Of a stretch of 64,000 bases of DNA, positions 1,178 to 55,921 are shown one piece after another. The notes beneath the pieces are model-generated. The model was given only the letters and a program-made list of their open reading frames with translations. It searched no databases and was not told the origin of the DNA. Position 1 is the stretch's first letter; each line of letters begins with the position of its first letter. A program made the position numbers and the translations under genes. The stretch comes from Scilla litardierei (taxonomy: Eukaryota; Streptophyta; Magnoliopsida; Asparagales; Asparagaceae), in the NCBI GenBank assembly GCA_030789695.1, contig CM061136.1, forward strand, positions 129,680,648 through 129,744,647. Reading direction: 5' to 3'.

Positions 1178-2145
1178 TGGCAAAATTAGCGAGCGTTGAT
1201 TTTGATATGCTGGATGCCGCATGAAAGAACTATCTGAGCTGGCGGGTGAATCTGACGTTCCACCTGCGCTCAATGGCTCTTATGAGTATGATTCTGGCTC
1301 CTACTCATCTGGATAATCTGGAATGTGACGTGGCATAACTGTGCCTGCGGCCTCAGTAGTGGCATAGGCTACTTCAACAGCGACTCCTGAAGCGACGCAA
1401 TCATCTGTCTCTGATATAGATAAGGCAAAAGACATTATCTACATTAGGAGGCACATTGATTGGACTTTAAAAGCCGAATATCTAACAATAGAGGATCCAC
1501 TTGAGTTATGGACAGCACTGGAGGCACGTTTTAAACATCAGATTGATGTTATACTGTCCCGTGCTAGTTCTCAGTGGGACAACCTCCGACTTCAGGACTT
1601 CAATTCTGTGTCTGAGTATAACTCATCACTGCATAATATCACCTTACGCCTGAAGCTGTACGATGAAGAAGTCTTGGACCAATGCATGTTGACAAAGACT
1701 TTCATGTCTTTCCATGAAAAGGATGCAATCCTCATGCAATAGTACCGCGAAAGAAATTTCACGAAATTCTCTGACTTACTCTCCTGCCTCCTAAGGGCGG
1801 AGTAGAACAGAGTCATGTTACTAGCCACTCACAACCTTCGCCCTGCTGGGACTTCTCCACTCCCTGAAGCCCATCTTGTTTCTTCCCAGAAGATAAAGAA
1901 CAAGAAGAAGGCCAGAAATTACAAGGGTAAAGCTGTGATGAAACCGGCTGGATGACCTCTACAGAACAATTACTACAACCAGTGGAATAAAAAGAATACA
2001 TGGAAGAGTAACAACAATGGCCCACTGTCTATTCCCAAGAAGAACTGGGTGGACAAGTGCCATAGATGTGGCATGACTGGACATTGGTCCAGGAACTGCC
2101 TCACTCCATGTAATCTCCAGGATCTTTATCAGGCAAGCCTGCAGC
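1178..2145 (+). pseudogene. Copia-1 gag, N-terminal and nucleocapsid part (broken)
   Basis: Translation starts at an ATG at 1178 and shows copia gag of the UBN2 / gag-polypeptide type: a WTALEARFKHQ-like block near 1510-1550, a SEYNSSLHNI-like block near 1610-1640, and a CCHC knuckle (C-x2-C-x4-H-x4-C, CHRCGMTGHWSRNC) at about 2058-2100. In-frame stops and frameshifts occur at about 1226, 1335 and 1740. It would have encoded the RNA-binding structural protein of the particle. The frame is cut at 2145 by an Athila-type solo LTR. Confidence 0.8.
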
Positions 2146-2504
2146 TGATCGCTCCGGGATGTAACCCCAAAAGAACGGTTGTAGTTTTACCGCAAGTGCA
2201 CGGTGTAGCAGCGAGCGGGTTATCGAACACAGGGAGGACGAATGACCGTGCTTGTTCCGATCAACCTGGCTATTTAAGAAGAGAGATTTGCCTTTGGCGA
2301 TCCTGTCACAATCGTCAGACAAAGTATAGAAATATCAAATCAAATAAAGAACGTCTAGGGAATGGGGAATTCCCGCTACTCACCATATTTCGTAAAAGTG
2401 GTTTATCAGTATTAAAATCGCTAGAATAAGATTTCGGATGAACTAGTTGCAACTGAATGTAGAACCAAGCTCACGCTCTCGCGCTGTTGCCGGTCTATAG
2501 CTAT

Positions 2505-2803
2505 CCTAGGCTCGGGTCCAATCTCTTGCAAACCCTAGCCTAGGGAAGTTAGCATTAGGATCAACATCATCGTTCAATCGCGCACCGAGCCCAATCTCTT
2601 GCAAACTCGACTCACGACCTAGATTGGGATAGTTCCTACCCGTCCAATCTCTTGCAAACGGGTATTGGTGCAGAATTGGAACCGGAAACCCTAGTATCGG
2701 TCCAATCTCTTGCAAACCGATACTACGGAAATTCGATTCCAACCCAATTCGGATTTCTAGGGTTTCCTATCGAATTGGGATCCAATCTCTTGCAAATCCC
2801 AAT
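2505..2803 (-). repeat. Five-hairpin array with invariant 14-nt loop
   Basis: Five copies of CCAATCTCTTGCAA (plus-strand reading; UUGCAAGAGAUUGG in the sense RNA) start at 2518, 2591, 2644, 2702 and 2782. Each is bracketed by inverted-repeat arms. The clearest are TACCCGT/ACGGGTA (2637-2664), a 10-bp TAGTATCGGT/ACCGATACTA (2692-2725) and ATTGGGAT/ATCCCAAT (2774-2803). The first, 2505-2544, has a 12-pair arm with one mismatch; the second has only CGAG/CTCG. The arms differ in sequence but still pair, while the loop is constant. The array lies downstream of the TATA-like box, so it should be transcribed. Confidence 0.85.
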
Positions 2804-3285
2804 CGATGTGAATTCCTAGCCATCCGTAGTAAATTGATCCCAATCTAATCTCTAATAGCAATTCTAGCAAAATTCCTACCAATTCATCACAATTATGAAA
2901 TAGGGCTTGTAGGGTTCATCCCCACGCCCCAAGACGTGACGACTACTCACAATTCATAGCAAGATCACAAAAATAATCAATGAAATAAGCAATAGAATTC
3001 ATCACAATATTGAGATATGCAATAAAAATAGAATTTTTAGAGAAGAGAAAAGCAAACCAATGGAGTTCTTCAATTAATCCAACAAAAATCCAATTTTGTC
3101 TCCTCTTCAATCACAAGAATAAAACTAAAAAGCTAATCTAAAAAGCTGCAAAAAATCTAAGAGAGAGGCTCTCCAAACTAGGGTAAAAACAGGGGTTAAA
3201 TAGCCCCCAAAATCGTCCAAAAACTGTGACCAAAATACCCCTGCGCAGCCTGTTTTCCGCAATTTTCGCTACAGGCAGCGCGTCG

Positions 3286-3667
3286 CACTCGGCCGAGTGA
3301 CAAAAGTCGCTCGGCCGAGTGAAAACCCTGTAATTTTCCAGTAAGTATCGATCTTCAGGGGTCTTCACTTCGGGGGCGGCTCGGCCGAGTGAGTTGTCGT
3401 CACTCGGCCGACGGCTTCATGGTACTCGGGCGGACGGGATTATCCACTCGGCCGAGTGGGTCTTCTGAAGCTCAGGCAGCCGAAAAACAGTAACTTGGAG
3501 ATTTTTGAAGGGCTTCGTCTGGGCGCCACTCGGGCGGACGGGGGTCTCGTCACTTGGCCGATGTGGTCTCCGTCGCTCGGCCGAGTGCACATAGGAATCG
3601 TGTCTGATCAGGTCGGCCGAGCGGTGTCTCGCTGGTCGGCCGAGTGGCTCCTCCACTCGGCCGAGTG
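3286..3667 (-). repeat. CACTCGGCCGAGTG palindrome array (solo LTR U3)
   Basis: About ten full or partial copies of a 14-bp self-complementary word, CACTCGGCCGAGTG, occur with irregular spacing; perfect copies include 3286-3299 and 3654-3667. On the minus strand the array sits just upstream of the TATA-like box of this LTR. A perfect palindrome repeated in U3 suggests binding sites for a dimeric factor; this is inference. Confidence 0.8.
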
Positions 3668-3967
3668 GGACACAAAAAATGCCCAGATTGCTTATTTTGG
3701 CCTCCTCGTCGCTCCTGCGACGTCCGTTCTTCTTCCGCTCCTCTCCAGCAGCAAAATACCCCTCGGGGAGGTCATTGGTGACCGTCTGGAGTAAGCACAT
3801 CTCGAGATCACTCCAAATCGTGCCAAATCACCTGAAATGCGACAAAAACAACAAATCGTGAAAAGCATCGCAATATCGTCGATATATCGTGAAAAACATG
3901 ATTTGGGCGATCTAAATGGCATGCAAACATGCGGTAAAAAAGTGTAAAATAAGGAGTGATCAGCAGC

Positions 3968-5290
3968 CTCGTCCTGAAACAAATCTGGTTGAATCTCATC
4001 CTTCAACCAAGCTGAATGCAAAATACTTCTATCACGACGACTTGCTATATTGAGCCTTATCTTAGTTTGATTTTATCTTTGCATTTTATATTCTAGATTC
4101 CTTCATCTGTATTTCCTTTTTGGAGCTATTTGAATGCAGTTTTAGCTTTATTTTATAAAGTCTATTCATTCTGATATATAGATGAAGTGTGATATATTGT
4201 GGACAGTGCATCAATGCACTGGTGAAGCATTAAAATTGCTCACATATACAACGAGGCTAAAAGATGCATATTTCTCTCCTAAATCATAGAGTAATCTCCC
4301 TAGTTTCAAGGATATTTCGTTTAACGAACATAACTTGGAAACTATGGATAATAAATAGTGAATATCTTTATGTAACTCTCAAGAGGATGGCCAGAAGACC
4401 ATCTACGCATGATTCGTTGGACCCCCGTCGGGTCCCTATCATTACAGCCTATATAAAGCCAACTTGACTGAGCACCAGAAGTGCCTTTCACTGCCAGAGT
4501 TTTTCAACTCTGGCACAATAGACTTGGTCATCCTGGATCAGCGATGATGGATGCATCATCAAATGAATCCCTTGGAGAACCTGAAGATTCTTCAAAAGGT
4601 TGAGTTTCTTTGTCCCCCTTGTCATAAGGGAAAACTTATATAGAGTCCTTTCCTCCTGAAACTGGGATTAGAGTCTCCTGGCTTCATACATGGTGACCTT
4701 TGCGGGTCTATTCACCCTGCAAGTGGCCCATTTCGGTACTTCATTGTATTGATAGATGCATCTACTATATGGTCTTATATGTGCCTTTTTGTCCACCAAC
4801 AACCTAGCTTTCTCAAAAACTGATAATATGGGTGAATTCACTATAAATGTCTTTCAAGACTACTGCCAAGCATCTGGCATTGAAATTGAACATCCTATAT
4901 CATGTTCATACTTAGAATGGGTTATCAGAGTCTCTGATAAAGAGACTCCGATGGATTTCACGTCCATTGTTAAATCCCAGTTGCCTGTGTATGTTTAGGG
5001 ATACTCCATACTGCATTCTGCATCGTTTATCACGATACGACCCTCCTGTGGCCGTTACTTATTGCTGATGCCGCTTGCTTATGGTTCACCACCAAACATA
5101 TCTCGTTTGAGATTGTTTGGATGTGCTAATATATGTCCCAATAGCACCACCTTAGAGGACCAAAATGGGTACTCTTCAAAACTAGTTATCTTTATATGGT
5201 TTGATTCGCCTTGTATTATTAGATACCTAGAACCCCTGGCAAGCGATGCAATAAAGGCACGTCCTGATAACTGTGAATTTAATGAGCAAA
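3968..5290 (+). pseudogene. Copia-1 protease / pre-integrase / integrase remnant
   Basis: This continues Copia-1 after the solo LTR. The end of gag resumes at 3968. A SFKDISFNEHNLETMDN-like block lies near 4300-4350. The integrase core is recognisable at 4690-5290: a GPLxGSIHPASGPFRYFIVLIDA-like block, a DNMGEF block (second catalytic Asp region) near 4822-4840, a QDYCQASGIEIEHP-like block, and an IIRYLEPL-like block near 5215. Several frameshifts and stops are present. The frame is cut at 5290 by the Tekay-type solo LTR and resumes at 50927. Confidence 0.75.
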
Positions 5291-10232: not shown

Positions 10233-11273
10233 CTAAATTTGGTCTAACACCTTTGAATGATGCTTCAGAGTAGCATCGTATGTACTGAATTGCATTTGAA
10301 TCCTTGCAAAGCCTTCAGTAACGGTCTCAGTAAGGCGACGAATAAGCACGACGTTTGTCTCGCGAGAGGGAGAGATGCCATCCTTCGAGGTAAGGAACTT
10401 CTTGCTTGACTTGGAACGGGAAGAGCCTGGAGCGATCATCGGTGTTGGAGATACCTGCGGCTGAGGCTGTGGGGACTGAGTGTGAGTCCCTTCGGACTCA
10501 TCGTCGTCGTCGTCGTCTGATTTGGCAGAGGAAGAGGGAGGATTTGACAGGTGCATGCTGTGGATGGTGAGTTCATCGATGTGGATATCATTATGAACAA
10601 GGTACTCTCCATCAGTGGGGACAGAAAATGCGCGAAGGATAAGGGTAATAAGACATGGCAAATAAAAATGGGAGGTGACGCGTTTTGCAAGGGTGAAGTA
10701 CAAGAGATGTCCCCAATGGATCAGAAATCCACCCAAAATGGCATAGTGGCAGTGCTCGATGGATGAACTGAGGTAGTTGAGGGATGTCGATTTTGGCATT
10801 AGGTTGTGGATGATAACCTTGTGGAGAAGGCGTGCGTCGGGATGAAGTTTAGTTGCGGGCATGTAAGAGTAAAATTTTGGAGCCAATTTTGCTAGAATGG
10901 TAGGATTGGTCATAGGAAATGAGAGAGTGCCATAAAAATCTGGAGGCTGGGCGATGACCTTGGTAATAGTCTTGCCAGACACGGTAAAAGAAACACCGCG
11001 AACCATGGTTGTGAAGTGCTTCTGACCACGGTAGACGGATGATTCAATGTTAGCATAGAATTCCTTGACCAAGGAAGGATAGTATGGGACCTTGTTGGCA
11101 AGAGACCAAATTTGGTGAAGGCCGACGACTTCTAGGATATCTTTGACGTTGATCATGGCGAGAGTCTCATAGTCGAGAAATTGCTCGGGGTGAAAGCGGG
11201 TTGCTTCGAAAGAGAGATAACGATCCTTGGTAGAGGAGGAACGGAAACGAGAAGATGGGTCGGTTTCGGCCAT
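10233..11273 (-). CDS. Sire-A post-pol ORF (ORF3), plant-transposon-protein family
   Basis: An uninterrupted 346-codon frame with an ATG start at 11273; the open frame extends 18 nt further upstream without an ATG. It lies between pol and the 3' LTR, where Sire-type elements carry an extra ORF. A core of about 200 residues contains YPSLVKEFYAN (about 65-76) and a C-terminal PCLITLILRAFSVP block. An Asp/Glu run (SDDDDDDESEG) and a C-terminal helix-like segment follow. Sire-B ORF3 aligns along the core, with matching Y-x-LVK-x-FYAN and PCL-x-TL-x-R-x-F-x-VP blocks. No signal peptide or membrane segment is evident, so I do not call it an envelope. It resembles what databases label 'putative plant transposon protein'; that is from memory. 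It is open although the other Sire-A genes are broken. Function unknown. Confidence 0.75.
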   Translation of the reverse strand: MAETDPSSRFRSSSTKDRYLSFEATRFHPEQFLDYETLAMINVKDILEVVGLHQIWSLANKVPYYPSLVKEFYANIESSVYRGQKHFTTMVRGVSFTVSGKTITKVIAQPPDFYGTLSFPMTNPTILAKLAPKFYSYMPATKLHPDARLLHKVIIHNLMPKSTSLNYLSSSIEHCHYAILGGFLIHWGHLLYFTLAKRVTSHFYLPCLITLILRAFSVPTDGEYLVHNDIHIDELTIHSMHLSNPPSSSAKSDDDDDDESEGTHTQSPQPQPQVSPTPMIAPGSSRSKSSKKFLTSKDGISPSRETNVVLIRRLTETVTEGFARIQMQFSTYDATLKHHSKVLDQI

Positions 11274-12299
11274 GGTGAGGAGTGGAAACAAAATGAAGAA
11301 GGAAGGAAGAAGATAAACAGGGGATAGAGAAAAAATAATAAAGGATTCGGATGAAATAAATAGAAATAAGAGAGGAACGCAAATACCGAACGGTTGCCAT
11401 GATCATTTTCAAGTTGAGGAAGTTGCTAAAACTGAATGGGTTACAAAAACTGAAAAGTTTCAAAATGAAACCCAACAGCCTTGTAGAAGAAGAGACGCAA
11501 CAAAAATAAATGAAGAGGTTAAAAAGAGATGGTTTGAATGTAACCGTTTTAAATAACCCCAAAAACAAATAAGTAAACAAGAGATGAAGTTAAAACAAAA
11601 TGAGAAGAGGACAAAACTTAAAGAGAGTAGGTGAAAGGTATCATGCAAAGCATTGAAAGGGTTGTGTGTCCCAAGGTCATTGAAAATAGGAGAGAAAAAA
11701 ATCAATGCCGAATTTAATAGTGTAGGATGTGTTGGTGGATGAGTGCAAATGGGAACGAGCCATTTGGCAAATTGAAATCCTCATTCCAAGACAAAGAGAT
11801 ATAATGCCATTTCACTTTCCAAGAGAGAAGAAGTTACTTCAACTGAAGAGAGAAGGACGGTTGGTGAGGGACAATGAAGATTGACCAATGAAAACAAGCC
11901 AAATGCAAAGAAAAGGACGGTTGAAGGTTAATCCCAAATCTCAAGCAAGAGAAAATGAAGTTCGACCAATGTCCAAGGTCCTTAGTCGTATGCAAGGATA
12001 GGAACGAGTTAAAGATAGTAGTAAGAGTTTTATAAAAATTTTGTTGTTATTTTAAAAAAAATCATTTCCCTAAGCCGCATAATAAATGGTATGAGACAAA
12101 AAAATCCGAACACATGGGTTAAAAAATTTAAAAAATAATAAAAAATAAAAGATAAAAAGATAAAAAGATATCCATCAAAAGTATAAGACAAAAGAGATTT
12201 ACAAATTAGTCGGCTACAAAAATTTGTAGTCAGCTAAAAATAAATAATGACGAAAAAAATTATAGAAAAATTCTCAAAAATCAAAACAAATTATCATAC
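11274..12299 (-). other. Sire-A pol-ORF3 intergenic region
   Basis: Purine-rich non-coding sequence between the pol stop codon (12302-12300) and ORF3. It holds one clear element palindrome at 12206-12237 (inner arms CTACAAA/TTTGTAG, outer TTAG/CTAA). Minus-strand open frames at 11167-11705 are Phe/Ser/Leu-rich readings of a pyrimidine-rich strand and look spurious. This region may contain a promoter or splice acceptor for ORF3; none can be identified by eye. Confidence 0.5.
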
Positions 12300-12354: not shown

Positions 12355-12783
12355 AAAGATGTTGAATATTGGACTCCCCGGATTTGGTTTTGGATGATGA
12401 GCAAACATAAATAATTCATGAACTAACAATTTGTGAGCGCAGTATTGGAGATCGTCGCCAAATTCACGAGAACAATCAAAGCGACATCTCAAGACTTCTC
12501 AAAGCTCGTATTCATTGCCTAAAGCTTCGTTGAAGCACTTGGACCGTTTTGGAAGTCATGAAGAATTGATCGAAGCTCTCGAAGACCGTTCATTAAGGTT
12601 TTATTTATAGTCTTTTAGCTTCGATCTATAGAATGGTAAGCCTTGAGTATATCTTACGATTCTATCTTCATAACGCTCATATTGTAGCTCTAGGATCTTA
12701 GTACAAGTCCACTCTAACTTCCTCGAAGCATCGCGCTTCGATTCGGACTGGTTTGTGCATATTAGTTGGTACAAGAAGAAGTA

Positions 12784-13302
12784 CTGACCGACTAGATGGT
12801 GATCTAGTCGGTCAGCAGAGCTTCTTGGACCGACTAGTGTGAGTTAATCTTTTCTTGTTCAGTACTGTTTACAGTTAGTCGGTCTACGTTGACTCACCGA
12901 CCGACTAGTTTATGAACTAGTCGGTCAGTGATGCTTCTTTGACCGACTAGTTGTGATTTACTGTACATGCCAAATTTCTCCTAAGCTACTGTTTATCGTT
13001 AGTCGGTCTAAGAACGTTTGGTGACCGACTAGTTGATAATCTAGTCGGTCAACATTTGTTCTTGGACCGACTAAGTCAATTTGTATTCAGACTACTTGTT
13101 TTTGCCTCTTAGTCGGTCTACGTTCACTGACTGACCGACTAGTTGTGAAACTAGTCGGTCAGAAAGTCTTCTTGGACCGACTAGATTTCTAGGTCTGAAT
13201 TTCTATCTCTTCTCTGTTCTTAACTTAGTCAGTCCATGTTGTTTGACTGACCGACTAGTTGATGAACTAGTCGGTCAGTGGTTGTTCTTTGACCGACTAG
13301 TT
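12784..13302 (+). repeat. Sire-B U3 palindrome array
   Basis: Repeated palindromes built on GACCGACTAG ... CTAGTCGGTC. The most perfect is 12784-12815, with 14-bp arms CTGACCGACTAGAT / ATCTAGTCGGTCAG around a 4-nt spacer. Four further full pairs follow at roughly 110-120 bp spacing, with single half-sites (TTAGTCGGTC or GACCGACTA) between them. The array ends about 50 bp before the TATA box. The 3' LTR has the same array at 42296-42814. Confidence 0.9.
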
Positions 13303-13354
13303 GCCTCAGATTTCTATCCGTTGGGACTTGACCTAACTTGTTTTTATGGGACCC

Positions 13355-13362
13355 TATAAATA
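13355..13362 (+). promoter_or_regulatory. Sire-B LTR TATA box
   Basis: TATAAATA in the context CCCTATAAATACG. It follows the palindrome array and precedes a pyrimidine-rich leader with CTCTCTAGG; the 3' LTR copy is 42866-42873. This is the likely core promoter; the start site was not mapped. Confidence 0.7.
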
Positions 13363-14113
13363 CGAACCTAGGTCATTTCTCTCTAGGTTAGAGCTGCCAT
13401 TAAGAGATTCATTGAGATAGAAAGAGATAGCCATTCTCACTCATTTCTAAAGCTCTCTTCCTCACAAGAAATCCATTCTCTCACATTCTAGATCTAGAAT
13501 CCATCTTGAGAGAAGTTTGTTCTTGGTGAGCCCTTCAAGCTCTAGCTTGATTCAAGTCTCCAAATCACTCCTAGGCACCCATTGCTGGTCATTTCTTTGG
13601 TGCTAGGTCTTGGTGACTTCATCTTCCTCAAATCCCTCCTTGCACCTATTTGGTAAGAAAACTCAAGGTATAGGATTTTGTGGTAAGATTGTTTATTTCA
13701 TTATAAACTTGTTTATATTGCTTATTGATTCTCTCGGTTGTGAGAGAAGGTTGTGATCCCGGGTTGTGGGATTCACTATTGCCATTGCATGTATGATTTG
13801 ATCTTGTGAAGGTTTTTCACAAGATATCATAGTGGAAATCTTGGGTTAGGGTGTCTAACCTAAGTATCCGGAGGGGATCCGGGTGGTTGGGACGTAGGAT
13901 CACCGGGAACAAGTCGGAGAGACTTGGGTGGATCCGAACCCAGTAACATCTTTTGTTAGCATTGTTATTTTTGTTGTTGTCATTCAATTTAAGCTTCCGC
14001 AAATTGATTTGGTAGTTGTTTGCACTATAATTAGGAATTATACTCCTTGTTATTTTTAAAGTACTATTCACCCCCCTCTAGTACTTGTGCTGTAGCTTGT
14101 AGGGCATTACATT

Positions 14114-20082: not shown

Positions 20083-23000
20083 TGTCACGCCCCGCTTCCC
20101 AAAAACATGGAGGCGAAGCGTGAGAAGGTCCGCACGGACTTGAAGCTGCAAAGCCGCAAGTCCGTTAAGCGTCAAATAAAACGAAGTAGCAGGTCCCTGT
20201 AATGTGACTCAGAACAACAATAATAATAATAGCAAAAGAGGCGAATAATAAAGCATTCATCCAACTCATAGTCCAATAAAAGTCCACAACCAGAAATGCC
20301 ACCGGCAACAAAAGAGTCAAAAGTACAAGGCCCAGCATGGCCAAAGGAAACTAACAAAACGGTGCTACTCACCGACAACCACAGCTAACAAAAAAAAGTA
20401 CGGATGATCTCTAAGATTGATCACCTGTATCTTCGTACTCTACGTCACCAACGGGCTCAGGCACGAACTCCACGAACTCGTCACCCTCCGCAACTATCTC
20501 TGGCTCAGCAACTAACATGCGTCACCCAAAGAGAAGGGGCACATGTCAGCAAATCTAAAAAGACTTGTGCAAGAAACTATGAAAGAAAGGTAAAACAACC
20601 TAACAGTTCTAAAGTAAAGTATGACATGGATATAAAGTGACAAATGACATGGCATGGCAATTATACGAGTAAAAGACAAGTACTGGAATTGTAATCACGT
20701 CGTGCACAGAGATTCCGTCCTTTGGCTAGAGTGGCTGTACGGGCCAACTCTTACACTCAAGTGACCGTTTATCCCTACCCCTCCACGTGTGTCGAGCCAG
20801 GGCATTACCCCCGAACACGGAATGCTCGCTTCTGGATCACGAGCCAGGAAGTGTTTTTAACACGGATGGCGTAGGGTTATGCCCGCATAACGGGTGCCTA
20901 GCCGGTAACATGGAAACATGGAAAGTAGTGTAGCGTGTGCTACGATGCAAGTTTAACTAGGATGACATGTATGATGCAATGCAGGGCAGTTAACAATTCA
21001 AATGCGTACAGTTAAGGAATTTAAACATGACAGATATCAATGCATAAATGATATGGCAAGGTGTCGGATCTAGCTTCGTTGTCAAGCTAGATCACAAAGT
21101 TGCGCCTGGATCGCTATCATTTCACGATCTAGTCTCTTTCACGCTAGTACAAGGAATTGGCCTAAAGACATGGCCTAAAGAAAGTTGGCAAGTTTCACTT
21201 GCCTGATTTTGGTGATGTCGGATGACGTGGATTCGTCTCGACAAACGTTACGTTATGGGACGACTGGTGCTCTGTTTGATTAAAAATAAGGACTCTGAAT
21301 TAGTACTCCATCATAGCTAACTGATTAGTTATTTCATTTAGGTCCTCTAACCTAGGGAGATTCACTTCATATTATTAATGATACTAACCCACTAAAAATA
21401 ACATGTGTGTAATAACCTACTTCTTATCAATCTTGGGCATAAGGTATTTTAGTGTTCCAATAAAGTTACTGATCATGCAAGACTTCCAACATCAAAACAA
21501 AGCTTTAGGGGTCCTCAAGTACAAGAGTGGGGCTGCAATATGTATACTATCCTATATAGCATATAAGTTATCTATAAGAAGCCATGGCATCAAGTTTCAA
21601 ATAGCAACACTACTCTTTCATGTATACAGCAAGCTCTTTAAAACATTTCTTATCAAGTGTATAACAGAGGAGATAACTCGAGTTGGGTTCATATGCACAA
21701 AAACCTAAGCACATCATCTACCTACTTGATGATCCACAAACATCAAAAGTTTTCTTATAAAACCCTCACATCTAGCAACTAACCCATCTAAATATTAAAC
21801 TCACAGACAGGGAGTTAAACCCTAACCAATTTTTCTTTAACACTTATAAAACAACCAGCAGTTCACAGGTGAATCAACCCAATACAACAGATAAAGGTTT
21901 AATCTCTAACAACTTAACATCTTCATTATATATATAGCAATCTTCTAGCATTCCTTAAGATCTTCACAGAAGAGAAAACCAACAGCAGGAATCTAATCAT
22001 ACCATAAGCTAACAGCAATTAACCATTCTTAACTTAATCATTAACTAACATCTGAACTTATAAACCTAACCCTAACTAAATAAAATTCATCACTAACCTC
22101 TAACTCAAAGCTGCGGGTGCAGGTGGGCTCGAGGGTGGCTGCGGCGCTTGGGGTGTGCTCCGGCGATCCACAGGAACTCACGGCGGCGATGGGTGGCCGC
22201 GGCGGCGGCTGCAGCGGCGGCGGCGGCCTGCTGCAGCTGCTGCTGCGTTTACAGCGGATCGGGGCGGTTTTAGCGGCGGTTTCCGGTAACTTACGGCGGA
22301 GCAACGGAGGGAGGAAGGTCGGGGGATGGTCAGGGGCTCGCCGGCGTCGGGGTTTGGCCGGAGAAAGGGAAGAACGGCGGGTCTTGCGGTGGTTGCGTGA
22401 GTGAGGAAGAGAACTAGGGCCGGCGCATGGGGGTTTTATGTTTTAGGTTGCTGTGAAACCTAGCCTTAGGTTTATTATTAATAGGGGAGGGTGCACGTGA
22501 TGTAGGGTGAAGGCTAGGGTGTGGGCTTCTCAGTTGAGTTGAGGTTTAAGCTATATGAATTTGTTAAATAAGAATTAAACTGTTAAAAGCCCAAGCAAAA
22601 ACTTCACACTCTCTTTCTTGCGTGGGTTTGTGTGCCAATGGTTTAGAAGTGGGCCAAGTCACAAGTCAGATGTAATTATAATAATATTATTATTAAGGGA
22701 TATAACACCATGAAACCTAGGGCTTAAAATACAATAAGTTGGACCAAAAAGTGCACATAGATCAAACGGAGTCCAAAAATCGTAAGAAAAATACTGGGGT
22801 GACCGGAACGACGAGAGAAAGAAGATGGAAGAGACGGATCACAATTTCGATGACGAGAAACGAAATTAAAAATAAAAGCGTCTCCTGCCAAAAGTGATAA
22901 TCGCGACGTCTCCTCAACCAAGGTCGATTCGCGGACGAACGACCCGTGAAAAGACGTTGCAAATCAACACAAAATTCTAATACTCTCAGAGAGGGACACA

Positions 23001-23108
23001 ACGACATATCACACGATAGGGTTCGGATACAGACAACGTCAAAAATAAACACGTGCACGAACAAGACTACGTGCACGTCACAGCGTACAACAAAAACTGA
23101 TCGTTACA
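20083..23108 (-). repeat. Chromovirus LTR, left copy
   Basis: A 3026-bp LTR. On the minus strand it begins TGTAACGATCAG at 23108 and ends GGGGCGTGACA at 20083. Near its minus-strand start are ACGTGCACG and CACGTG-like words (about 23050-23078). A GC-rich block (22100-22400), in minus sense rich in CCGCC, probably belongs to the transcribed leader. Open frames of 87-101 residues inside it lack motifs and an ATG in good context, so none is called. As the 3'-most LTR in transcription sense, it is preceded by the PPT at 23109-23122. Confidence 0.95.
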
Positions 23109-23122
23109 TCCTCCCCACCTTA
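23109..23122 (-). other. Chromovirus polypurine tract, unit 1
   Basis: On the minus strand TAAGGTGGGGAGGA sits immediately before TGTAACG of the LTR. This is the usual gypsy/chromovirus plus-strand primer. The second copy is at 30965-30978. Confidence 0.85.
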
Positions 23123-23149
23123 GAAATGATTCCGCCCTCGGGATCAACA

Positions 23150-26100
23150 TCAAACACTGCTCGGAAAGAGATGCGGGAAGCGCTCTCTCATGTCATCCTC
23201 ACGCTCCCAGGTAGACTCTCCAGGGGAACCATGACGCCACTGCACTCGAACCAAGTCGACAGTCTTATTCCTCAGCTGCTTCTGACGTCGATCCAAAATC
23301 TCAACTGGCTGCTGGTCATAGGTAAGATCCGGACGAACCGTGATCTCCGAGAAATCCACAGCATGGGACGGATCACTGACGTATCGACGTAACTGAGATA
23401 CGTGAAACACGTCGTGAACTCCCTCCAGTGACGGTGGCAACGCCAAGCGATAAGCCACAGCTCCAACTCTCTCCAGGATGTCAAACGGCCCAATGTATCT
23501 CGGACTCAGCTTGCCTCTCTTTCCAAATCGGATAACTCCCCGATTCGGAGAGATCTTCAGAAAGACGTGATCCCCAGGCTGAAACTCCAAAGGCCTCCGT
23601 TTAGCATCTGCCCAATGCTTGAAACGGTCCTGCGCAATCCTCAGCTTCTCCCGGATGTTCCTCACAACACCCACAGCCTCCACGATCATCTCTGGTCCTA
23701 ACAGCTCCCTGTCTCCAATGTCATCCCAGCTCAGTGGCGATCGACATTTCTTCCCGTATAGCGCGGCGAATGGCGCCATGCCAATACTCGCCTGGTAGCT
23801 GTTATTGTAGGCAAACTCCACATGATGGAGATGATCCTCCCAAGACCCCTTGAAGCCTAACATGCACGCCCTTAGCATGTCCTCCAAGATCTGGATCGTC
23901 CTCTCGGACTGGCCATCTGTCTGCGGATGGTACGCCGTGCTGAAACTCAGACTCGTACCCAAGCTCTTCTGCAGACTCTGCCAGAACTGAGATGTGAATC
24001 TCGTGTCTCTGTCTGACACGATACTCACAGGGACTCCATGCAGTCGAACGATCTCCTGCACGAACACGTTACATCACTAACTATTCAAGGAAAAGGAAAT
24101 AAAAATGGAAAGTAAAAGGATTTACCTCCATATATCTCCTCGCCAGCGCCTCAGTGGACTGTCCTACTCGGAACGGAATAAAGTGCGCGGATTTGGTCAA
24201 TCGGTCTACGATCACCCAAATCGCGTCATTCTGCTTCGGACTCCGAGGTAGTCCAGTCACGAAGTCCATAGTGATGTGTTGCCACTTCCACTCCGGAATC
24301 GGAAGCGGTTGTAGCAACCCTGCCGTACGCTGATGCTCCGCCTTAACCTGCTGACAGACCAAACACTTGGCAACGCTCCGTGCCACACTTCGCTTCATGC
24401 CATGCCACCAATAGTTCAGACGAAGATCCTGATACATCTTGGTCCCACCAGGATGCACAGAATACGGCGAGCTATGTGCCTCAACTAATAACTCCTCTCT
24501 GATATCTCCAGCTGGCACACAAACTCTGGCTCCATACCTCAGCGAGCCATCCTCGTGAATCCGAAAGTCAGTCCGCAGACCGGCTTCTACCTGCTCACGG
24601 ATCCTCCTCAGCTTCGAATCTCCAGCCTGACCTGCCTTGATCCGATCCACGATCGTCGACTGTATCTGCATACACATCAACGACGAAGCCTCTCCAGGAA
24701 GTACAATCTCAATACCAGACTCACAGAAATCCTGCTGCAACCTCCACTGTGCAGTCAACATCATCACCGCCGGAAGCCTACTCAACGCATCAGGAACCAC
24801 ATTCACTTTTCCCGGGTGATACTGCAAATCAATCTCATAGTCTGCCATGAGCTCTAACCATCGACGCTGTCGCATGTTGAGCTCCTTCTGTGTAAAAATG
24901 TACTTCAAGCTTTTGTGATCGGTGAAGATTTTCACCTTCTCACTCAGCAGGAAGTGCCTCCAAATCTTGAGTGCAAACACGACTGCTGCTAACTCCAGGT
25001 CGTGCGTCGGGTAATTCTTCTCATGAGTCTTGAGCTGACGAGAAGCATACGCAACCACATGCCCATGCTGGTGCAACACACAACCGAGACCCTTGCCAGA
25101 AGCATCACAAAAGATCTCGAATCCTCCACTACGATCAGGCACTGCTAAAACCGGTGCAGTCGTCAATCTCTCCTTCAGAACAGAGAAGGCCTCCTCACAA
25201 GCATCAGACCAAACATACGGTATATCCTTCCTTGTCAGTTTAGTCATCGGTTCTGCAATCCGGGAGAAATCCTTAATGAAACGCCGATAATATCCTGCTA
25301 GCCCAAGAAAACTCCTGATCTCCGTCGCTGACTGTGGAACCGGCCACTCCCTGATGGCCTTGATCTTCTCGGGATCCACTGAAATCCCATCACCAGTCAC
25401 CACATGCCCCAGAAAAGCCACTCTATCTAGCCAGAACTCGCACTTCGAATACTTGGCATACAACCGATGCCTCCTCAGAATTTCCAATACCGTCCTCAAG
25501 TGCGACGCATGCTCCTCCTCTGACTTAGAATAGATCAGAATGTCGTCAATGAAAATAACGACAAACTTATCTAAATAGTCGTAGAAGATCAAATTCATCA
25601 GGTTCATAAATACTGCGGGCGCGTTGGTCACACCAAAAGGCATAACCACGAACTCGTAGTGACCATACTTCGTCCTGAACGCCGTCTTCGGAATGTCCTC
25701 CTTCCTCACCTTCAGCTGGTGATATCCACTCCTCAGATCCAATTTGGAGAATACCCTCGATCCTCCGAGCTGATCAAAAATATCATCAATCCGCGGCAAT
25801 GGGTACTTATTCTTTACAGTCACCGCATTCAGTCCTCGATAATCCACGCACATGCGACGCGAACCGTCCTTTTTCTTTACCAGCAGGACCGGTGCTCCCC
25901 ACGGAGACACACTGGGATTAATGTAACCCTTCTGCAAAAGCTCGTCCAGTTGCTTCCGTAACTCTTCCAATTCCGCTGGAGCCATACGATAAGGTGCCTT
26001 TGAAATGGGCTGCGCTCCTGAAATCAGGTCAATAGAAAATTCCAGAGCTCGATCGGGCGGCAGTCCAGACATCTCCTCGGGAAAAACGTCATCAAATTCA

Positions 26101-27789
26101 CGTACCACAGCAGATCTATCCTGCTCCATCAGCATAGCCACATCTTCCACCGGCTTGGCCCGAAACCTGACCGGACCCAGCGAACTGCTACCACGGCTGA
26201 ACTCAAACACTGGATGTCCAGGAATCTCGAACACTACCTTCTTCCTCCGACAGTCGATCGTAGCGTAGAAGCTCGCAAGCCAATCCATCCCAAGCACAGC
26301 ATCGTAGTTGATGATGTCGTGGACAATAAAGTCAGCATACAGCTCGTGTCCACAGACCACCAACGGGCAGGAACTGCACCCACGATGCACCGAAATCACA
26401 CCATTCCCTGTGATGATGTTCCAACTCCTGGGAAGAGAGGAAGTCGACAGGGAATGCCTCTCCACGAAGCTCCGAGAAATGATACACATGGATGCACCAG
26501 AGTCAAAGAGAACTCGTGCAGGAAAAGCGCAAACCAAGATCACACCTAACAGACAGTCTAACAATCAAATTCTATTCTAGCAGATAATCATGTGCAAACA
26601 ACTAATTATATCTAACAGCCAACTAACTAAGAAAGGAACAGCTAGTTAGAAAGTTACCTGCGATAACCTCGTCCAACGTCTCGGTCTCAGCAGCAGTCAT
26701 CAAAAACGCCTGTCGTCTCGGTCGGACAGCCTGCTGAAACGCCTGCCTCTGCGGAACGAGAGGCGCCCCACGACCAGCAGGAACAGGTGTCCTCTGCTGC
26801 AACGGCTGAGCTGCAACAGGTGCCTTCCACGGCTGCTTCGACCTCGGGCAATCCTTCATGGTGTGCGCAGGATCACCACAAACTAAACACTGCCCCAGCA
26901 TCTTCCGGCACTGATCCTTGATATGCCCCGTCTTGCCACAGAAGTTGCAAGTCTTCAGAGTAGAAGGTCCTCCAGGCCTCTTGAACTGCACAGGCTGGTT
27001 GGGCCCGTGCCCCGGTCTCACCACTGCTCTGGCCTGCTCCATAGGCCTCTTCCCAGTGCCAGAAATCTGTCCCCTCTTCTGATTCACAATCCTCTCCTGC
27101 CTCTTTGCCGCAATCAGAACCTTCTGGTAAGTCTCCGCATCAGAAGAAGTGACATAGCTCTGCAGATCCAACGAAAGCCCCTGCAGAAACCTCTGGGCTC
27201 TCTCCTCAGCATCCTGCACCATCTTCGGTGCAAAACGACTCAGCCTCGTAAATTCCTGGTGGTACTGATCCACCGTCAAATTCCCCTGCTTCAAGTCAAT
27301 GAAACGCTGAGCCATCTCTCTCCTTGCGGCCTTAGGAAAATATTCTTCATCAAACCTGGACTTGAAGGTAGTCCAAGAAATCGGCTCCTCCAGCAACTCC
27401 TCCTCGGCGTCCCACCAGTTCCGCGCGTTGTCCTTCAGCTGCCGCTTTGCCAGATCAACCCATCCAGTCGGGTCGACCTTCGACATCTTCAGATTGTCTT
27501 CCATGTTCCTGGTCCACTCATCTGCAACCAGGGGTCCCTCGGTCCCATCAAAGTAAGCAGGGCCCAGCTCCCGAAACTGCTTCGCTCCGGGCTCGAAGCG
27601 AGGGACATTCTGGACAGGCTGCGCTGCTCGAGCAGGCGGAACATTCTGGGCATTCTGGAGCATGCCCTGCTGCACCTGCATCATCTGATGCATCATCCGC
27701 ATGATCTCTCCGTTGGTGGGCTCCCGATCCGGCTCCTGGTCACGAGGGGGCACTCCACCACCAGCACGGGTATTCCGTCTCCCAGCCAT
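23150..27789 (-). CDS. Chromovirus gag-pol polyprotein, unit 1 (two introns)
   Basis: Exons on the minus strand are 27789-26658, 26545-24126 and 24055-23150, giving 4458 nt, 1485 codons plus stop, with an ATG at 27789. Rough positions in the joined frame: gag domain 75-240; CCHC knuckles at 281-294 and 301-314 ([28 protein letters not shown]); protease with DSGA near 391; RT with FIDD near 710; RNase H with CDASGKGLG near 860; integrase zinc region near 1065-1110; integrase core; chromodomain-like tail ([14 protein letters not shown]) near the C-terminus. Without splicing, stops end the frame after gag and again inside integrase. The first splice restores a split Gly codon before protease; the second gives the usual family spacing before EIVRLHG. 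All catalytic motifs seen are intact, so it may be functional. Confidence 0.9.
24056..24125 (-). other. Intron 2 in chromovirus integrase, unit 1
   Basis: A 70-nt minus-strand segment with donor GAG|GTAAAT, a T-rich body (TTTTTATTTCCTTTTCC), a TGTAAC branch-like word and acceptor GTGCAG|GAG. It is phase 0. It contains in-frame stops, and removal brings integrase to normal family spacing. A plain indel is unlikely because both ends match splice sites and the whole joined frame stays open. The length is at the short end for plant introns. Confidence 0.75.
26546..26657 (-). other. Intron 1 between gag and protease, unit 1
   Basis: A 112-nt minus-strand segment with donor GCAG|GTAACT and acceptor CTGTTAG|GTGT, T-rich, with CTAAC- and TTAGAC-type branch candidates. 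It splits a Gly codon (phase 1). Unspliced translation stops ten codons into it, giving a 388-residue gag; splicing would give gag-pol. This suggests splicing could set the gag to gag-pol ratio; inference. Confidence 0.82.
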
Positions 27790-27938
27790 CTATTGACACA
27801 GGAAAACGAAACAAATCAGACTCTTTGGTTATGACACGGTGTTGAATTTTGTTTATTGGACTTGCTATAATTCTTATTGTTATCCCGATTAAGTCACAGT
27901 TACAGAAAATTGGACCTGCATGGGCCACCAAAGAAACC

Positions 27939-30900
27939 TGTCACGCCCCGCTTCCCAAAAACATGGAGGCGAAGCGTGAGAAGGTCCGCACGGACTTGAA
28001 GCTGCAAAGCCGCAAGTCCGTTAAGCGTCAAATAAAACGAAGTAGCAGGTCCCTGTAATGTGACTCAGAACAACAATAATAATAATAGCAAAAGAGGCGA
28101 ATAATAAAGCATTCATCCAACTCATAGTCCAACAAAAGTCCACAACCAGAAATGCCACCGGCAACAAAAGAGTCAAAAGTACAAGGCCCAGCATGGCCAA
28201 AGGAAACTAACAAAACGGTGCTACTCACCGACAACCACAGCTAACAAAAAAAAGTACGGATGATCTCTAAGATTGATCACCTGTATCTTCGTACTCTACG
28301 TCACCAACGGGCTCAGGCACGAACTCCACGAACTCGTCACCCTCCGCAACTATCTCTGGCTCAGCAACTAACATGCGTCACCCAAAGAGAAGGGGCACAT
28401 GTCAGCAAATCTAAAAAGACTTGTGCAAGAAACTATGAAAGAAAGGTAAAACAACCTAACAGTTCTAAAGTAAAGTATGACATGGATATAAAGTGACAAA
28501 TGACATGGCATGGCAATTATACGAGTAAAAGACAAGTACTGGAATTGTAATCACGTCGTGCACAGAGATTCCGTCCTTTGGCTAGAGTGGCTGTACGGGC
28601 CAACTCTTACACTCAAGTGACCGTTTATCCCTACCCCTCCACGTGTGTCGAGCCAGGGCATTACCCCCGAACACGGAATGCTCGCTTCTGGATCACGAGC
28701 CAGGAAGTGTTTTTAACACGGATGGCGTAGGGTTATGCCCGCATAACGGGTGCCTAGCCGGTAACATGGAAACATGGAAAGTAGTGTAGCGTGTGCTACG
28801 ATGCAAGTTTAACTAGGATGACATGTATGATGCAATGCAGGGCAGTTAACAATTCAAATGCGTACAGTTAAGGAATTTAAACATGACAGATATCAATGCA
28901 TAAATGATATGGCAAGGTGTCGGATCTAGCTTCGTTGTCAAGCTAGATCACAAAGTTGCGCCTGGATCGCTATCATTTCACGATCTAGTCTCTTTCACGC
29001 TAGTACAAGGAATTGGCCTAAAGACATGGCCTAAAGAAAGTTGGCAAGTTTCACTTGCCTGATTTTGGTGATGTCGGATGACGTGGATTCGTCTCGACAA
29101 ACGTTACGTTATGGGACGACTGGTGCTCTGTTTGATTAAAAATAAGGACTCTGAATTAGTACTCCATCATAGCTAACTGATTAGTTATTTCATTTAGGTC
29201 CTCTAACCTAGGGAGATTCACTTCATATTATTAATGATACTAACCCACTAAAAATAACATGTGTGTAATAACCTACTTCTTATCAATCTTGGGCATAAGG
29301 TATTTTAGTGTTCCAATAAAGTTACTGATCATGCAAGACTTCCAACATCAAAACAAAGCTTTAGGGGTCCTCAAGTACAAGAGTGGGGCTGCAATATGTA
29401 TACTATCCTATATAGCATATAAGTTATCTATAAGAAGCCATGGCATCAAGTTTCAAATAGCAACACTACTCTTTCATGTATACAGCAAGCTCTTTAAAAC
29501 ATTTCTTATCAAGTGTATAACAGAGGAGATAACTCGAGTTGGGTTCATATGCACAAAAACCTAAGCACATCATCTACCTACTTGATGATCCACAAACATC
29601 AAAAGTTTTCTTATAAAACCCTCACATCTAGCAACTAACCCATCTAAATATTAAACTCACAGACAGGGAGTTAAACCCTAACCAATTTTTCTTTAACACT
29701 TATAAAACAACCAGCAGTTCACAGGTGAATCAACCCAATACAACAGATAAAGGTTTAATCTCTAACAACTTAACATCTTCATTATATATATAGCAATCTT
29801 CTAGCATTCCTTAAGATCTTCACAGAAGAGAAAACCAACAGCAGGAATCTAATCATACCATAAGCTAACAGCAATTAACCATTCTTAACTTAATCATTAA
29901 CTAACATCTGAACTTATAAACCTAACCCTAACTAAATAAAATTCATCACTAACCTCTAACTCAAAGCTGCGGGTGCAGGTGGGCTCGAGGGTGGCTGCGG
30001 CGCTTGGGGTGTGCTCCGGCGATCCACAGGAACTCACGGCGGCGATGGGTGGCCGCGGCGGCGGCTGCAGCGGCGGCGGCGGCCTGCTGCAGCTGCTGCT
30101 GCGTTTACAGCGGATCGGGGCGGTTTTAGCGGCGGTTTCCGGTAACTTACGGCGGAGCAACGGAGGGAGGAAGGTCGGGGGATGGTCAGGGGCTCGCCGG
30201 CGTCGGGGTTTGGCCGGAGAAAGGGAAGAACGGCGGGTCTTGCGGTGGTTGCGTGAGTGAGGAAGAGAACTAGGGCCGGCGCATGGGGGTTTTATGTTTT
30301 AGGTTGCTGTGAAACCTAGCCTTAGGTTTATTATTAATAGGGGAGGGTGCACGTGATGTAGGGTGAAGGCTAGGGTGTGGGCTTCTCAGTTGAGTTGAGG
30401 TTTAAGCTATATGAATTTGTTAAATAAGAATTAAACTGTTAAAAGCCCAAGCAAAAACTTCACACTCTCTTTCTTGCGTGGGTTTGTGTGCCAATGGTTT
30501 AGAAGTGGGCCAAGTCACAAGTCAGATGTAATTATAATAATATTATTATTAAGGGATATAACACCATGAAACCTAGGGCTTAAAATACAATAAGTTGGAC
30601 CAAAAAGTGCACATAGATCAAACGGAGTCCAAAAATCGTAAGAAAAATACTGGGGTGACCGGAACGACGAGAGAAAGAAGATGGAAGAGACGGATCACAA
30701 TTTCGATGACGAGAAACGAAATTAAAAATAAAAGCGTCTCCTGCCAAAAGTGATAATCGCGACGTCTCCTCAACCAAGGTCGATTCGCGGACGAACGACC
30801 CGTGAAAAGACGTTGCAAATCAACACAAAATTCTAATACTCTCAGAGAGGGACACAACGACATATCACACGATAGGGTTCGGATACAGACAACGTCAAAA

Positions 30901-30964
30901 ATAAACACGTGCACGAACAAGACTACGTGCACGTCACAGCGTACAACAAAAACTGATCGTTACA
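27939..30964 (-). repeat. Chromovirus LTR, middle (recombinant) copy
   Basis: The same 3026-bp LTR, shared by both units. At the two variable sites noticed it carries C at 28133 (as in the right LTR) and G at 28840 (as in the left LTR), the combination expected from crossing-over between a right and a left LTR somewhere between those sites. Confidence 0.95.
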
Positions 30965-30978
30965 TCCTCCCCACCTTA
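30965..30978 (-). other. Chromovirus polypurine tract, unit 2
   Basis: The same TAAGGTGGGGAGGA minus-strand sequence as 23109-23122, next to the middle LTR. Confidence 0.85.
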
Positions 30979-31005
30979 GAAATGATTCCGCCCTCGGGAT
31001 CAACA

Positions 31006-34000
31006 TCAAACACTGCTCGGAAAGAGATGCGGGAAGCGCTCTCTCATGTCATCCTCACGCTCCCAGGTAGACTCTCCAGGGGAACCATGACGCCACTGCA
31101 CTCGAACCAAGTCGACAGTCTTATTCCTCAGCTGCTTCTGACGTCGATCCAAAATCTCAACTGGCTGCTGGTCATAGGTAAGATCCGGACGAACCGTGAT
31201 CTCCGAGAAATCCACAGCATGGGACGGATCACTGACGTATCGACGTAACTGAGATACGTGAAACACGTCGTGAACTCCCTCCAGTGACGGTGGCAACGCC
31301 AAGCGATAAGCCACAGCTCCAACTCTCTCCAGGATGTCAAACGGCCCAATGTATCTCGGACTCAGCTTGCCTCTCTTTCCAAATCGGATAACTCCCCGAT
31401 TCGGAGAGATCTTCAGAAAGACGTGATCCCCAGGCTGAAACTCCAAAGGCCTCCGTTTAGCATCTGCCCAATGCTTGAAACGGTCCTGCGCAATCCTCAG
31501 CTTCTCCCGGATGTTCCTCACAACACCCACAGCCTCCACGATCATCTCTGGTCCTAACAGCTCCCTGTCTCCAATGTCATCCCAGCTCAGTGGCGATCGA
31601 CATTTCTTCCCGTATAGCGCGGCGAATGGCGCCATGCCAATACTCGCCTGGTAGCTGTTATTGTAGGCAAACTCCACATGATGGAGATGATCCTCCCAAG
31701 ACCCCTTGAAGCCTAACATGCACGCCCTTAGCATGTCCTCCAAGATCTGGATCGTCCTCTCGGACTGGCCATCTGTCTGCGGATGGTACGCCGTGCTGAA
31801 ACTCAGACTCGTACCCAAGCTCTTCTGCAGACTCTGCCAGAACTGAGATGTGAATCTCGTGTCTCTGTCTGACACGATACTCACAGGGACTCCATGCAGT
31901 CGAACGATCTCCTGCACGAACACGTTACATCACTAACTATTCAAGGAAAAGGAAATAAAAATGGAAAGTAAAAGGATTTACCTCCATATATCTCCTCGCC
32001 AGCGCCTCAGTGGACTGTCCTACTCGGAACGGAATAAAGTGCGCGGATTTGGTCAATCGGTCTACGATCACCCAAATCGCGTCATTCTGCTTCGGACTCC
32101 GAGGTAGTCCAGTCACGAAGTCCATAGTGATGTGTTGCCACTTCCACTCCGGAATCGGAAGCGGTTGTAGCAACCCTGCCGTACGCTGATGCTCCGCCTT
32201 AACCTGCTGACAGACCAAACACTTGGCAACGCTCCGTGCCACACTTCGCTTCATGCCATGCCACCAATAGTTCAGACGAAGATCCTGATACATCTTGGTC
32301 CCACCAGGATGCACAGAATACGGCGAGCTATGTGCCTCAACTAATAACTCCTCTCTGATATCTCCAGCTGGCACACAAACTCTGGCTCCATACCTCAGCG
32401 AGCCATCCTCGTGAATCCGAAAGTCAGTCCGCAGACCGGCTTCTACCTGCTCACGGATCCTCCTCAGCTTCGAATCTCCAGCCTGACCTGCCTTGATCCG
32501 ATCCACGATCGTCGACTGTATCTGCATACACATCAACGACGAAGCCTCTCCAGGAAGTACAATCTCAATACCAGACTCACAGAAATCCTGCTGCAACCTC
32601 CACTGTGCAGTCAACATCATCACCGCCGGAAGCCTACTCAACGCATCAGGAACCACATTCACTTTTCCCGGGTGATACTGCAAATCAATCTCATAGTCTG
32701 CCATGAGCTCTAACCATCGACGCTGTCGCATGTTGAGCTCCTTCTGTGTAAAAATGTACTTCAAGCTTTTGTGATCGGTGAAGATTTTCACCTTCTCACT
32801 CAGCAGGAAGTGCCTCCAAATCTTGAGTGCAAACACGACTGCTGCTAACTCCAGGTCGTGCGTCGGGTAATTCTTCTCATGAGTCTTGAGCTGACGAGAA
32901 GCATACGCAACCACATGCCCATGCTGGTGCAACACACAACCGAGACCCTTGCCAGAAGCATCACAAAAGATCTCGAATCCTCCACTACGATCAGGCACTG
33001 CTAAAACCGGTGCAGTCGTCAATCTCTCCTTCAGAACAGAGAAGGCCTCCTCACAAGCATCAGACCAAACATACGGTATATCCTTCCTTGTCAGTTTAGT
33101 CATCGGTTCTGCAATCCGGGAGAAATCCTTAATGAAACGCCGATAATATCCTGCTAGCCCAAGAAAACTCCTGATCTCCGTCGCTGACTGTGGAACCGGC
33201 CACTCCCTGATGGCCTTGATCTTCTCGGGATCCACTGAAATCCCATCACCAGTCACCACATGCCCCAGAAAAGCCACTCTATCTAGCCAGAACTCGCACT
33301 TCGAATACTTGGCATACAACCGATGCCTCCTCAGAATTTCCAATACCGTCCTCAAGTGCGACGCATGCTCCTCCTCTGACTTAGAATAGATCAGAATGTC
33401 GTCAATGAAAATAACGACAAACTTATCTAAATAGTCGTAGAAGATCAAATTCATCAGGTTCATAAATACTGCGGGCGCGTTGGTCACACCAAAAGGCATA
33501 ACCACGAACTCGTAGTGACCATACTTCGTCCTGAACGCCGTCTTCGGAATGTCCTCCTTCCTCACCTTCAGCTGGTGATATCCACTCCTCAGATCCAATT
33601 TGGAGAATACCCTCGATCCTCCGAGCTGATCAAAAATATCATCAATCCGCGGCAATGGGTACTTATTCTTTACAGTCACCGCATTCAGTCCTCGATAATC
33701 CACGCACATGCGACGCGAACCGTCCTTTTTCTTTACCAGCAGGACCGGTGCTCCCCACGGAGACACACTGGGATTAATGTAACCCTTCTGCAAAAGCTCG
33801 TCCAGTTGCTTCCGTAACTCTTCCAATTCCGCTGGAGCCATACGATAAGGTGCCTTTGAAATGGGCTGCGCTCCTGAAATCAGGTCAATAGAAAATTCCA
33901 GAGCTCGATCGGGCGGCAGTCCAGACATCTCCTCGGGAAAAACGTCATCAAATTCACGTACCACAGCAGATCTATCCTGCTCCATCAGCATAGCCACATC

Positions 34001-35645: not shown

Positions 35646-35794
35646 CTATTGACACAGGAAAACGAAACAAATCAGACTCTTTGGTTATGACACGGTGTTG
35701 AATTTTGTTTATTGGACTTGCTATAATTCTTATTGTTATCCCGATTAAGTCACAGTTACAGAAAATTGGACCTGCATGGGCCACCAAAGAAACC

Positions 35795-55838: not shown

Positions 55839-55921
55839 GCCGCTCCGCCTGCTGCGTAAAGTGCGATTTTTGGGCTGCGCAGGGGCATTTTTGTCACGAT
55901 TTTTTGGGCGATTTTGAGGGG

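Follow-up and report, generated by a model that had tools for sequence, protein, structure and literature searches.

A covarying array of near-identical hairpin apexes in the predicted leader RNA of an abundant Athila-lineage retrotransposon

Background

The tetraloop signals known from retroviruses comprise only one to a few hairpins. The CTE of Mason-Pfizer monkey virus, a retroelement RNA that serves the export of unspliced RNA, carries one motif on more than one stem; this motif is an internal loop, present in two copies near the 3' end, and in this the apexes described below differ. To our knowledge, no cis-acting packaging or export RNA has been mapped in the Athila lineage.

Among retroviruses, GACG tetraloops are described as acting in packaging and dimerisation, where they link the dimers (PMC516450). 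In HIV-1 the zinc knuckles contact tetraloop guanosines; even so, exchanging the GGAG loop had no significant effect there, and the infectivity of Rous sarcoma virus fell when it was given a GAGA loop (PMC7599994). A tetraloop is therefore, by itself, no mark of packaging.

Here we analysed a 64-kb stretch of Scilla litardierei DNA (the window), for which an array of five hairpins with a constant 14-nt loop and covarying stems had been predicted in an Athila-type LTR.

Results

Two solo LTRs with five-apex arrays

The window contains two solo LTRs, which share 72% identity and each carry an array:

2146-3962, minus strand (RNA sense): solo LTR copy A, 1817 bp, ends TGATCAC...GCGATCA in RNA sense
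3196-3202, minus strand: TATA-like box TATTTAA of copy A, a putative promoter element 407 nt upstream of the first apex
55166-56978, plus strand: solo LTR copy B, 1813 bp
56327-56603, plus strand: five-apex array of copy B, apexes at 56327, 56407, 56465, 56518 and 56590

Both LTRs start with TG, end with CA and are flanked by 5-bp target duplications (GCAGC at 2141-2145 and 3963-3967 for copy A, GGGAG at 55161-55165 and 56979-56983 for copy B), as expected of the Athila lineage. The 14-mer CCAATCTCTTGCAA occurs five times in exact form on the plus strand of copy A (2518, 2591, 2644, 2702, 2782). On the minus strand of copy B it is found five times between 56327 and 56603: three copies are exact, one has one mismatch and one has two. 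With up to two mismatches allowed, the window holds ten occurrences, against a mean of 0.67 and a maximum of 3 in window shuffles. The hairpins were named a to e in the RNA reading direction.

The first ten flanking positions of the motifs form 9, 5, 7, 10 and 8 Watson-Crick pairs in copy A and 8, 8, 5, 7 and 7 in copy B. Arms taken from different hairpins give 0-6 pairs per ten positions, and seven or more flanking pairs are reached at 0.7% of positions drawn at random from LTR A. Both arrays gave RNA folds that were better than all 100 shuffles (z -4.55 for A, -4.71 for B). The original prediction of five 14-mer copies on unrelated, self-complementary stems that pair beyond chance is thus borne out in both LTRs. 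The second hairpin, at 2591, is weak on the plus strand, and the C..A beside its motif becomes U.G in the RNA sense.

Palindromic ACTCGGCCGAGT boxes are repeated in U3 upstream of the TATA-like box (3286-3660 and 55471-55850). They appear again at 63725-63990, seemingly internal to another element and before an apparent second ORF. This 63.7-64 kb region was considered as a third LTR copy and rejected, as it holds no array and is followed by the apparent ORF. Other retroelements are also present in the window. The stretch 20083-38820 reads as a doubled Ty3/gypsy element in tandem, its three 3-kb LTRs being near-identical to one another and its two internal regions likewise, with 10.9 kb repeated at 99.98% (20083-30964 and 27939-38820). 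It is flanked by a 1.75-kb pair with 99.0% identity and diverged internal repeats of 200-400 bp (12359-14111 and 41871-43622), likely the LTRs of a nest. Frames matching PF20167 (Transposase_32, Putative plant transposon protein) lie in other retroelement remains at 10233-11402 (minus strand) and 39182-40915 (plus strand).

Abundance of the arrays

Exact matches to the 14-mer number 83,374 + 84,400 = 167,774 in the 3.68-Gb genome, whereas the reversed 14-mer, used as a control, gave 4 + 1 = 5. The sampled arrays described below (93) hold 303 exact motifs, about 3.3 each in a sample partly picked by another motif form. At this rate the genomic matches correspond to very roughly 50,000 arrays, so that by estimate the arrays number tens of thousands. 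In a search with array A, 40 of 1533 candidates were scored, and all were 98-100% identical over 331 nt. Viral contigs scanned with the single 14-mer gave at least 120 stretches, with one match each among the 80 matches listed, which we read as chance; a two-loop pattern had no match in the viral contigs or genome contigs searched.

Stem covariation

The sample of 93 arrays was taken mainly from one contig (C1), where arrays were listed by two patterns, together with five arrays on other contigs and both window arrays. In 89 of them the full set of five apexes could be located, at spacings of 79-80, 57-59, 53-54 and 71-74 nt; the remaining four (L142+, L142-, L143- and L181+) were left out of the pair counts. 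The spacing script searched within 4 nt of the expected place, and free clustering agreed with it except at L142 and L143. At locus L143 an inserted run of about 50 G separates hairpins d and e, where the spacing is 117 against about 72.

Stem lengths were fixed beforehand from the window copies, giving 37 stem pairs. In the 89 arrays, 93.9% of 3293 stem cells were paired, compared with 16-49% after sliding by 1-3 columns and 50-63% after swapping arms between hairpins; as the copies are related, such counts overstate independence. The 32 arrays not chosen by the C-G apex form (see below), window included, gave 94.3% of 1184 cells. Common standard pairs differing on both sides were found at 7 stem pairs, against 0-3 in slid and 1-2 in swapped controls.

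A tree was built from the spacers (non-stem sequence), and changes were placed by Fitch reconstruction, in which some inner states are arbitrary. Changes leaving the paired state broke pairing in 5 of 29 deep cases (clades of at least three copies) and kept it in 24, while among tip changes 71 of 144 broke it and 73 kept it (Fisher P 0.0018); 12 deep and 16 tip changes out of the unpaired state were excluded from this comparison. Eight both-sided deep changes keep pairing, three of them at the apex closing pair. Rare alleles, seen in no more than two copies, disrupt their pair in 45 of 65 cells; for common minor alleles the figure is 50 of 420. The thousands of dead copies offer an unusual internal control, in which the neutral decay of old copies can be compared with selection acting between subfamilies. 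It is very probable, judging from these patterns of change, that the stems and the apex closing pair are kept paired by selection and that the RNA corresponds to the minus strand of copy A.

Structure of the apex

The motif had been described as an open loop of 14 nt, and this description has to be replaced: it reads as a bulged mini-hairpin. In the RNA sense, the apex of copy A, and partly that of copy B, is predicted to fold with U1.G14, a U2-G3 bulge, the pairs C4-G13, A5-U12 and A6-U11, and a GAGA tetraloop. GAGA belongs to the GNRA tetraloops. The modelled consensus reads as 5'-U, bulged UG, C-A-(A or C), GAGA, (U or G)-U-G, (G or A)-3'. The two-mismatch motif of copy B is a paired swap from A6-U11 to C6-G11, and its one-mismatch motif replaces U1.G14 by U1-A14.

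Genome-wide, positions 6 and 11 are A-U in 167,774 apexes, C-G in 32,129 and U.G in 2,588, with the mismatches C-U in 247 and A-G in 304. The U.G apexes are possibly plain decay, since C6 stands in a CpG. The 445 apexes of the 89 arrays comprise 339 A-U, 101 C-G, 3 U.G, 1 A-C and 1 G.U; because 54 of the fetched regions had been picked by the C-G form, frequencies are taken from the 34 arrays not so chosen. In these, the closing pair of hairpin d is C-G in 29, A-U in 4 and U.G in 1, and that of hairpin e is A-U in 24, C-G in 9 and U.G in 1, while position 6 is A in 34 of 34 hairpins a, b and c. The closing pair of hairpin e switches twice on the tree.

Over five hairpins in 89 arrays, no deep change falls on apex positions 1, 2, 3, 5, 7-10 or 12-14; position 4 has one, and positions 6 and 11 have three each. 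The GAGA loop and the UG bulge are thus fixed beyond generic GNRA needs, which suggests a partner that reads the letters. In single-sequence folds ViennaRNA typically assigns the mini-stem a probability of about 0.56 when the closing pair is A-U and 0.23 when it is C-G, and in some copies the value is close to 0. Whole-leader folds form it at four of five apexes in copy A and two of five in copy B.

A larger RNA domain

The array had been delimited to 2505-2803. The predicted structure extends further, over about 2418-2870, and comprises the following parts, all on the minus strand:

2418-2870, minus strand: predicted structured RNA domain, hairpins a-e and a sixth GAGA hairpin (RNAalifold, 88 distinct copies)
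2620-2847, minus strand: long-range helix P1, 2831-2847 with 2620-2635, enclosing a, b and c (RNAalifold)
2750-2826, minus strand: hairpin a with outer stem, apex 2782-2795 (folds, stem covariation, RNAalifold)
2671-2746, minus strand: hairpin b with outer stem, apex 2702-2715 (folds, stem covariation, RNAalifold)
2637-2664, minus strand: hairpin c, apex 2644-2657, two stem pairs switching from C-G to U-A (stem covariation, RNAalifold)
2576-2619, minus strand: hairpin d with outer stem, apex 2591-2604, closing pair A-U in copy A (covariation, RNAalifold)
2498-2551, minus strand: hairpin e, apex 2518-2531, its closing pair being A-U or C-G depending on the subfamily (covariation, RNAalifold)
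2463-2495, minus strand: sixth, looser hairpin, GCGC-GAGA-GCGU at 2473-2484 (whole-leader folds, RNAalifold)

For 88 distinct copies in the sense orientation (485 columns), RNAalifold gave 154 pairs, 25 of them with double changes, at an energy of -220.4; eight conservation-matched column shuffles reached -106.9 to -131.5 with 3-12 double-change pairs. The predicted domain also has outer stems and further closing helices besides P1. Two pairs of P1 have changed on both sides, one being paired in 85 and the other in 53 of the 88 copies. In the 14 arrays with enough flank, the array region is 84% identical, against 58-69% in four other LTR parts, and is the best conserved of the five parts compared. 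As double changes are frequent in other LTR parts as well, affecting 9 of 42 pairs in the part around the TATA box and 8 of 39 in the part that follows the array, such counts alone are no proof; it is the contrast in energy and identity that stands out. A search of Rfam with window positions 2100-4000, up to E 1, gave one microRNA match at chance level (E 0.71, 21.5 bits against a cut-off of 75). The array appears to form the arms of a branched domain of about 450 nt, predicted in the R/U5 part of the LTR.

Identity of the element and place of the array

Of 26 arrays, 18 have an exact TATTTAA at a distance of 361-408 nt upstream of their first apex. Downstream, 14 of the 26 have a TGGCGCCGTTGCC-like site (up to two mismatches), in 13 cases 370-418 nt past the last apex and in one farther. 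These primer-site-like motifs come after CGATCAAGTTTT-like LTR ends and may fit a tRNA-Asp primer. A tRNA-Asp primer site about 5 nt after the LTR is described for Calypso/Diaspora. Downstream of the array LTR, one locus (L138) has a gag frame (PF03732) and a protease, and another (L136) has RT and PF03078 (Athila ORF-1, E 4.6e-8), so that these frames are spread over two loci and not all within one element. PF03078 is reported in 16% of Athila elements (PMC6317226). Together with the LTR ends, the frames support the predicted assignment of the array-bearing LTR to an Athila-lineage (OTA) Ty3/gypsy element.

The order is TATA-like box, array, LTR end and primer site, with gag further downstream in L138. 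As the array follows the TATA-like box and precedes the primer site, it would be part of the RNA leader, as originally proposed, if transcription begins at that box. RNA sense and leader position are settled as far as sequence can settle them, with the start of transcription presumed. A structured leader RNA upstream of gag, as predicted here, is also the arrangement of retroviral-type packaging signals.

Primer-site-like places in the 10-kb loci and the window have an array upstream in 15 of 19 cases (two share one LTR) and none in 4, in loci that had been picked for carrying arrays. Upstream of the 4 array-less places, a search for analogous arrays without the motif gave no candidates. The primer site at L133:4290 is preceded by an LTR that is a relative, by eye, and has no array; it is either a derivative or a sign that some kin manage without the array. 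This LTR-like stretch (L133 3090-4310) has similar ends and boxes, and a TATATA box that, by eye, is close to a U5-like tail.

Strand of the RNA

Within the stems, G.U outnumbers A.C by 303 to 56 (5.4 fold), and mispaired controls also favour G.U, by about 1 to 3.5 fold. Deep one-sided events divide 11:3 between G.U and A.C, and tip events 46:29, a weak signal when taken alone. In the antisense orientation, RNAalifold gave 132 pairs, 20 with double changes, at -157.3 (sense, -220.4), and in the 14-copy set the energy per 100 nt was -51.0 for sense and -35.8 for antisense. Double-change counts in the latter set (13 and 14) show no difference between strands. For array A alone, the plus strand had z -6.83 and energy -116.4, the minus strand z -4.55 and energy -127.3. 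The main support for the proposed strand assignment comes from the primer site, the gag frame and the folds of aligned copies.

Discussion

Based on these observations, we suggest that the leader RNA contains a domain of about 450 nt whose five arms, with a looser sixth, would present one apex although their stems are unrelated in sequence. Such identical knobs in fixed places might let several molecules of a single RNA-binding protein dock, the element's own Gag being the most likely candidate. The domain would then mark full-length RNA for packaging into virus-like particles, perhaps coupled with the pairing of two genomes. We give this reading, a multivalent platform most likely serving Gag in packaging, a probability of roughly 0.4, the partner being inferred. 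A set of five near-identical knobs, each on its own stem and at fixed distances from the others, is well suited to multivalent binding. Gag is the simplest partner: this RNA is what it would package, HIV-1 zinc knuckles contact tetraloop guanosines, and GACG hairpins act in the packaging and dimerisation of retroviruses. Counting against it are the replaceable HIV-1 loop and the harm done by a GAGA loop in Rous sarcoma virus, the array-less kin LTR before a primer site at L133, the moderate formation of the mini-stem in single-sequence folds, the more extreme z of the plus strand for array A alone and the similar double-change counts of the two strands in the 14-copy set.

Export and translation are serious rivals to Gag packaging. 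The domain might instead be a platform for host factors on full-length RNA, acting in nuclear export of unspliced RNA or in cap-independent translation start. The env-like frame of Athila has predicted splice acceptors (PMC2829016), and unspliced RNA may thus need export. Moreover, the leader measures about 1 kb from the TATA-like box to the LTR end and contains 9 (copy A) or 15 (copy B) upstream ATGs, which is unfriendly to scanning. Export or translation elements rarely need five identical knobs, however, and the Rfam search returned nothing above chance; we consider a host-factor platform less probable than Gag packaging. Dimerisation of two genomes through the apexes, proposed at the outset, could proceed by kissing of UUGCAA or by docking of the GNRA loop into a helix of the partner. 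UUGCAA is palindromic, its position 6 is A throughout hairpins a, b and c of the 34 arrays, and retroviral dimers are linked by GACG tetraloops (PMC516450). Yet an exposed, conserved loop palindrome is not what the apexes offer: 30 of the 34 hairpins d and 10 of the 34 hairpins e no longer have it, and part of it falls within the mini-stem. The GAGA loop, for its part, shows no deep change to another GNRA, which seems more than tertiary docking alone would ask. Kissing through the palindrome is disfavoured, and we regard dimerisation through the apexes as improbable.

An interplay with RNA silencing, in which the hairpins are decoys or sources of small RNAs, finds a precedent in an Athila6 small RNA first predicted from a stem-loop (PMC3276544). 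That RNA differs in sequence, the stems here are short and interrupted, and the sole microRNA match in Rfam is at chance level; we regard such a role as very improbable. The least probable reading is that there is no RNA function, the palindromes acting at the DNA level as protein sites or recombination hot spots and the covariation stemming from shared descent. The copies are indeed related, many pair switches track the same main clades, the antisense folds well too, and the G.U excess has its counterpart in mispaired controls. On the other hand, that excess is largest in the true stems, the aligned copies give better folds in the sense orientation, pairing mostly survives deep changes and survives about half of the tip changes, the closing pair of hairpin e switches more than once, and long-range helices covary.

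The domain might represent a cis-acting RNA of a new class, branched and situated in the leader, which displays one protein-binding knob five to six times in a fixed geometry, serves a plant endogenous-retrovirus lineage for packaging (or export) and is present in tens of thousands of LTRs. This broader proposal is tentative, and we give it less confidence than the platform itself. A text search of 5.39 million papers for the letters of the 14-mer gave no match. Literature on Athila, leaders, hairpins, tetraloops and packaging, searched by title, start of abstract or passages, a scope outside which most subscription papers fall, contained no such array. The matched stem changes appear to point to a working RNA part in a very abundant retrotransposon of one genome. 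A covarying domain with several knobs offers a defined RNA for probing and for testing whether Gag or a host factor is its partner; its structure also provides a marker that can be looked for in other plants.

Besides the CTE, three described systems are close enough for comparison. Conserved, repeated and symmetric motifs in plant LTRs are described for Sireviruses (PMC2829016); these are CGG-CCG palindromes at the DNA level, upstream of the TATA box, and are much like the U3 ACTCGGCCGAGT boxes, not the hairpin array. The siRNA854 of Athila6 (PMC3276544) is likewise a non-coding RNA feature of Athila, once predicted as a stem-loop, but it has another sequence and is a small RNA rather than a leader domain. 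The retroviral packaging and dimer signals, i.e. the GACG hairpins of gamma- and alpharetroviruses and the GGAG hairpin of HIV-1, are also tetraloop hairpins in the untranslated leader of a retroelement. Unlike them, the array, known here from sequence, has five to six near-identical bulged apexes, predicted to lie on a branched domain inside the LTR of a plant Ty3/gypsy element.
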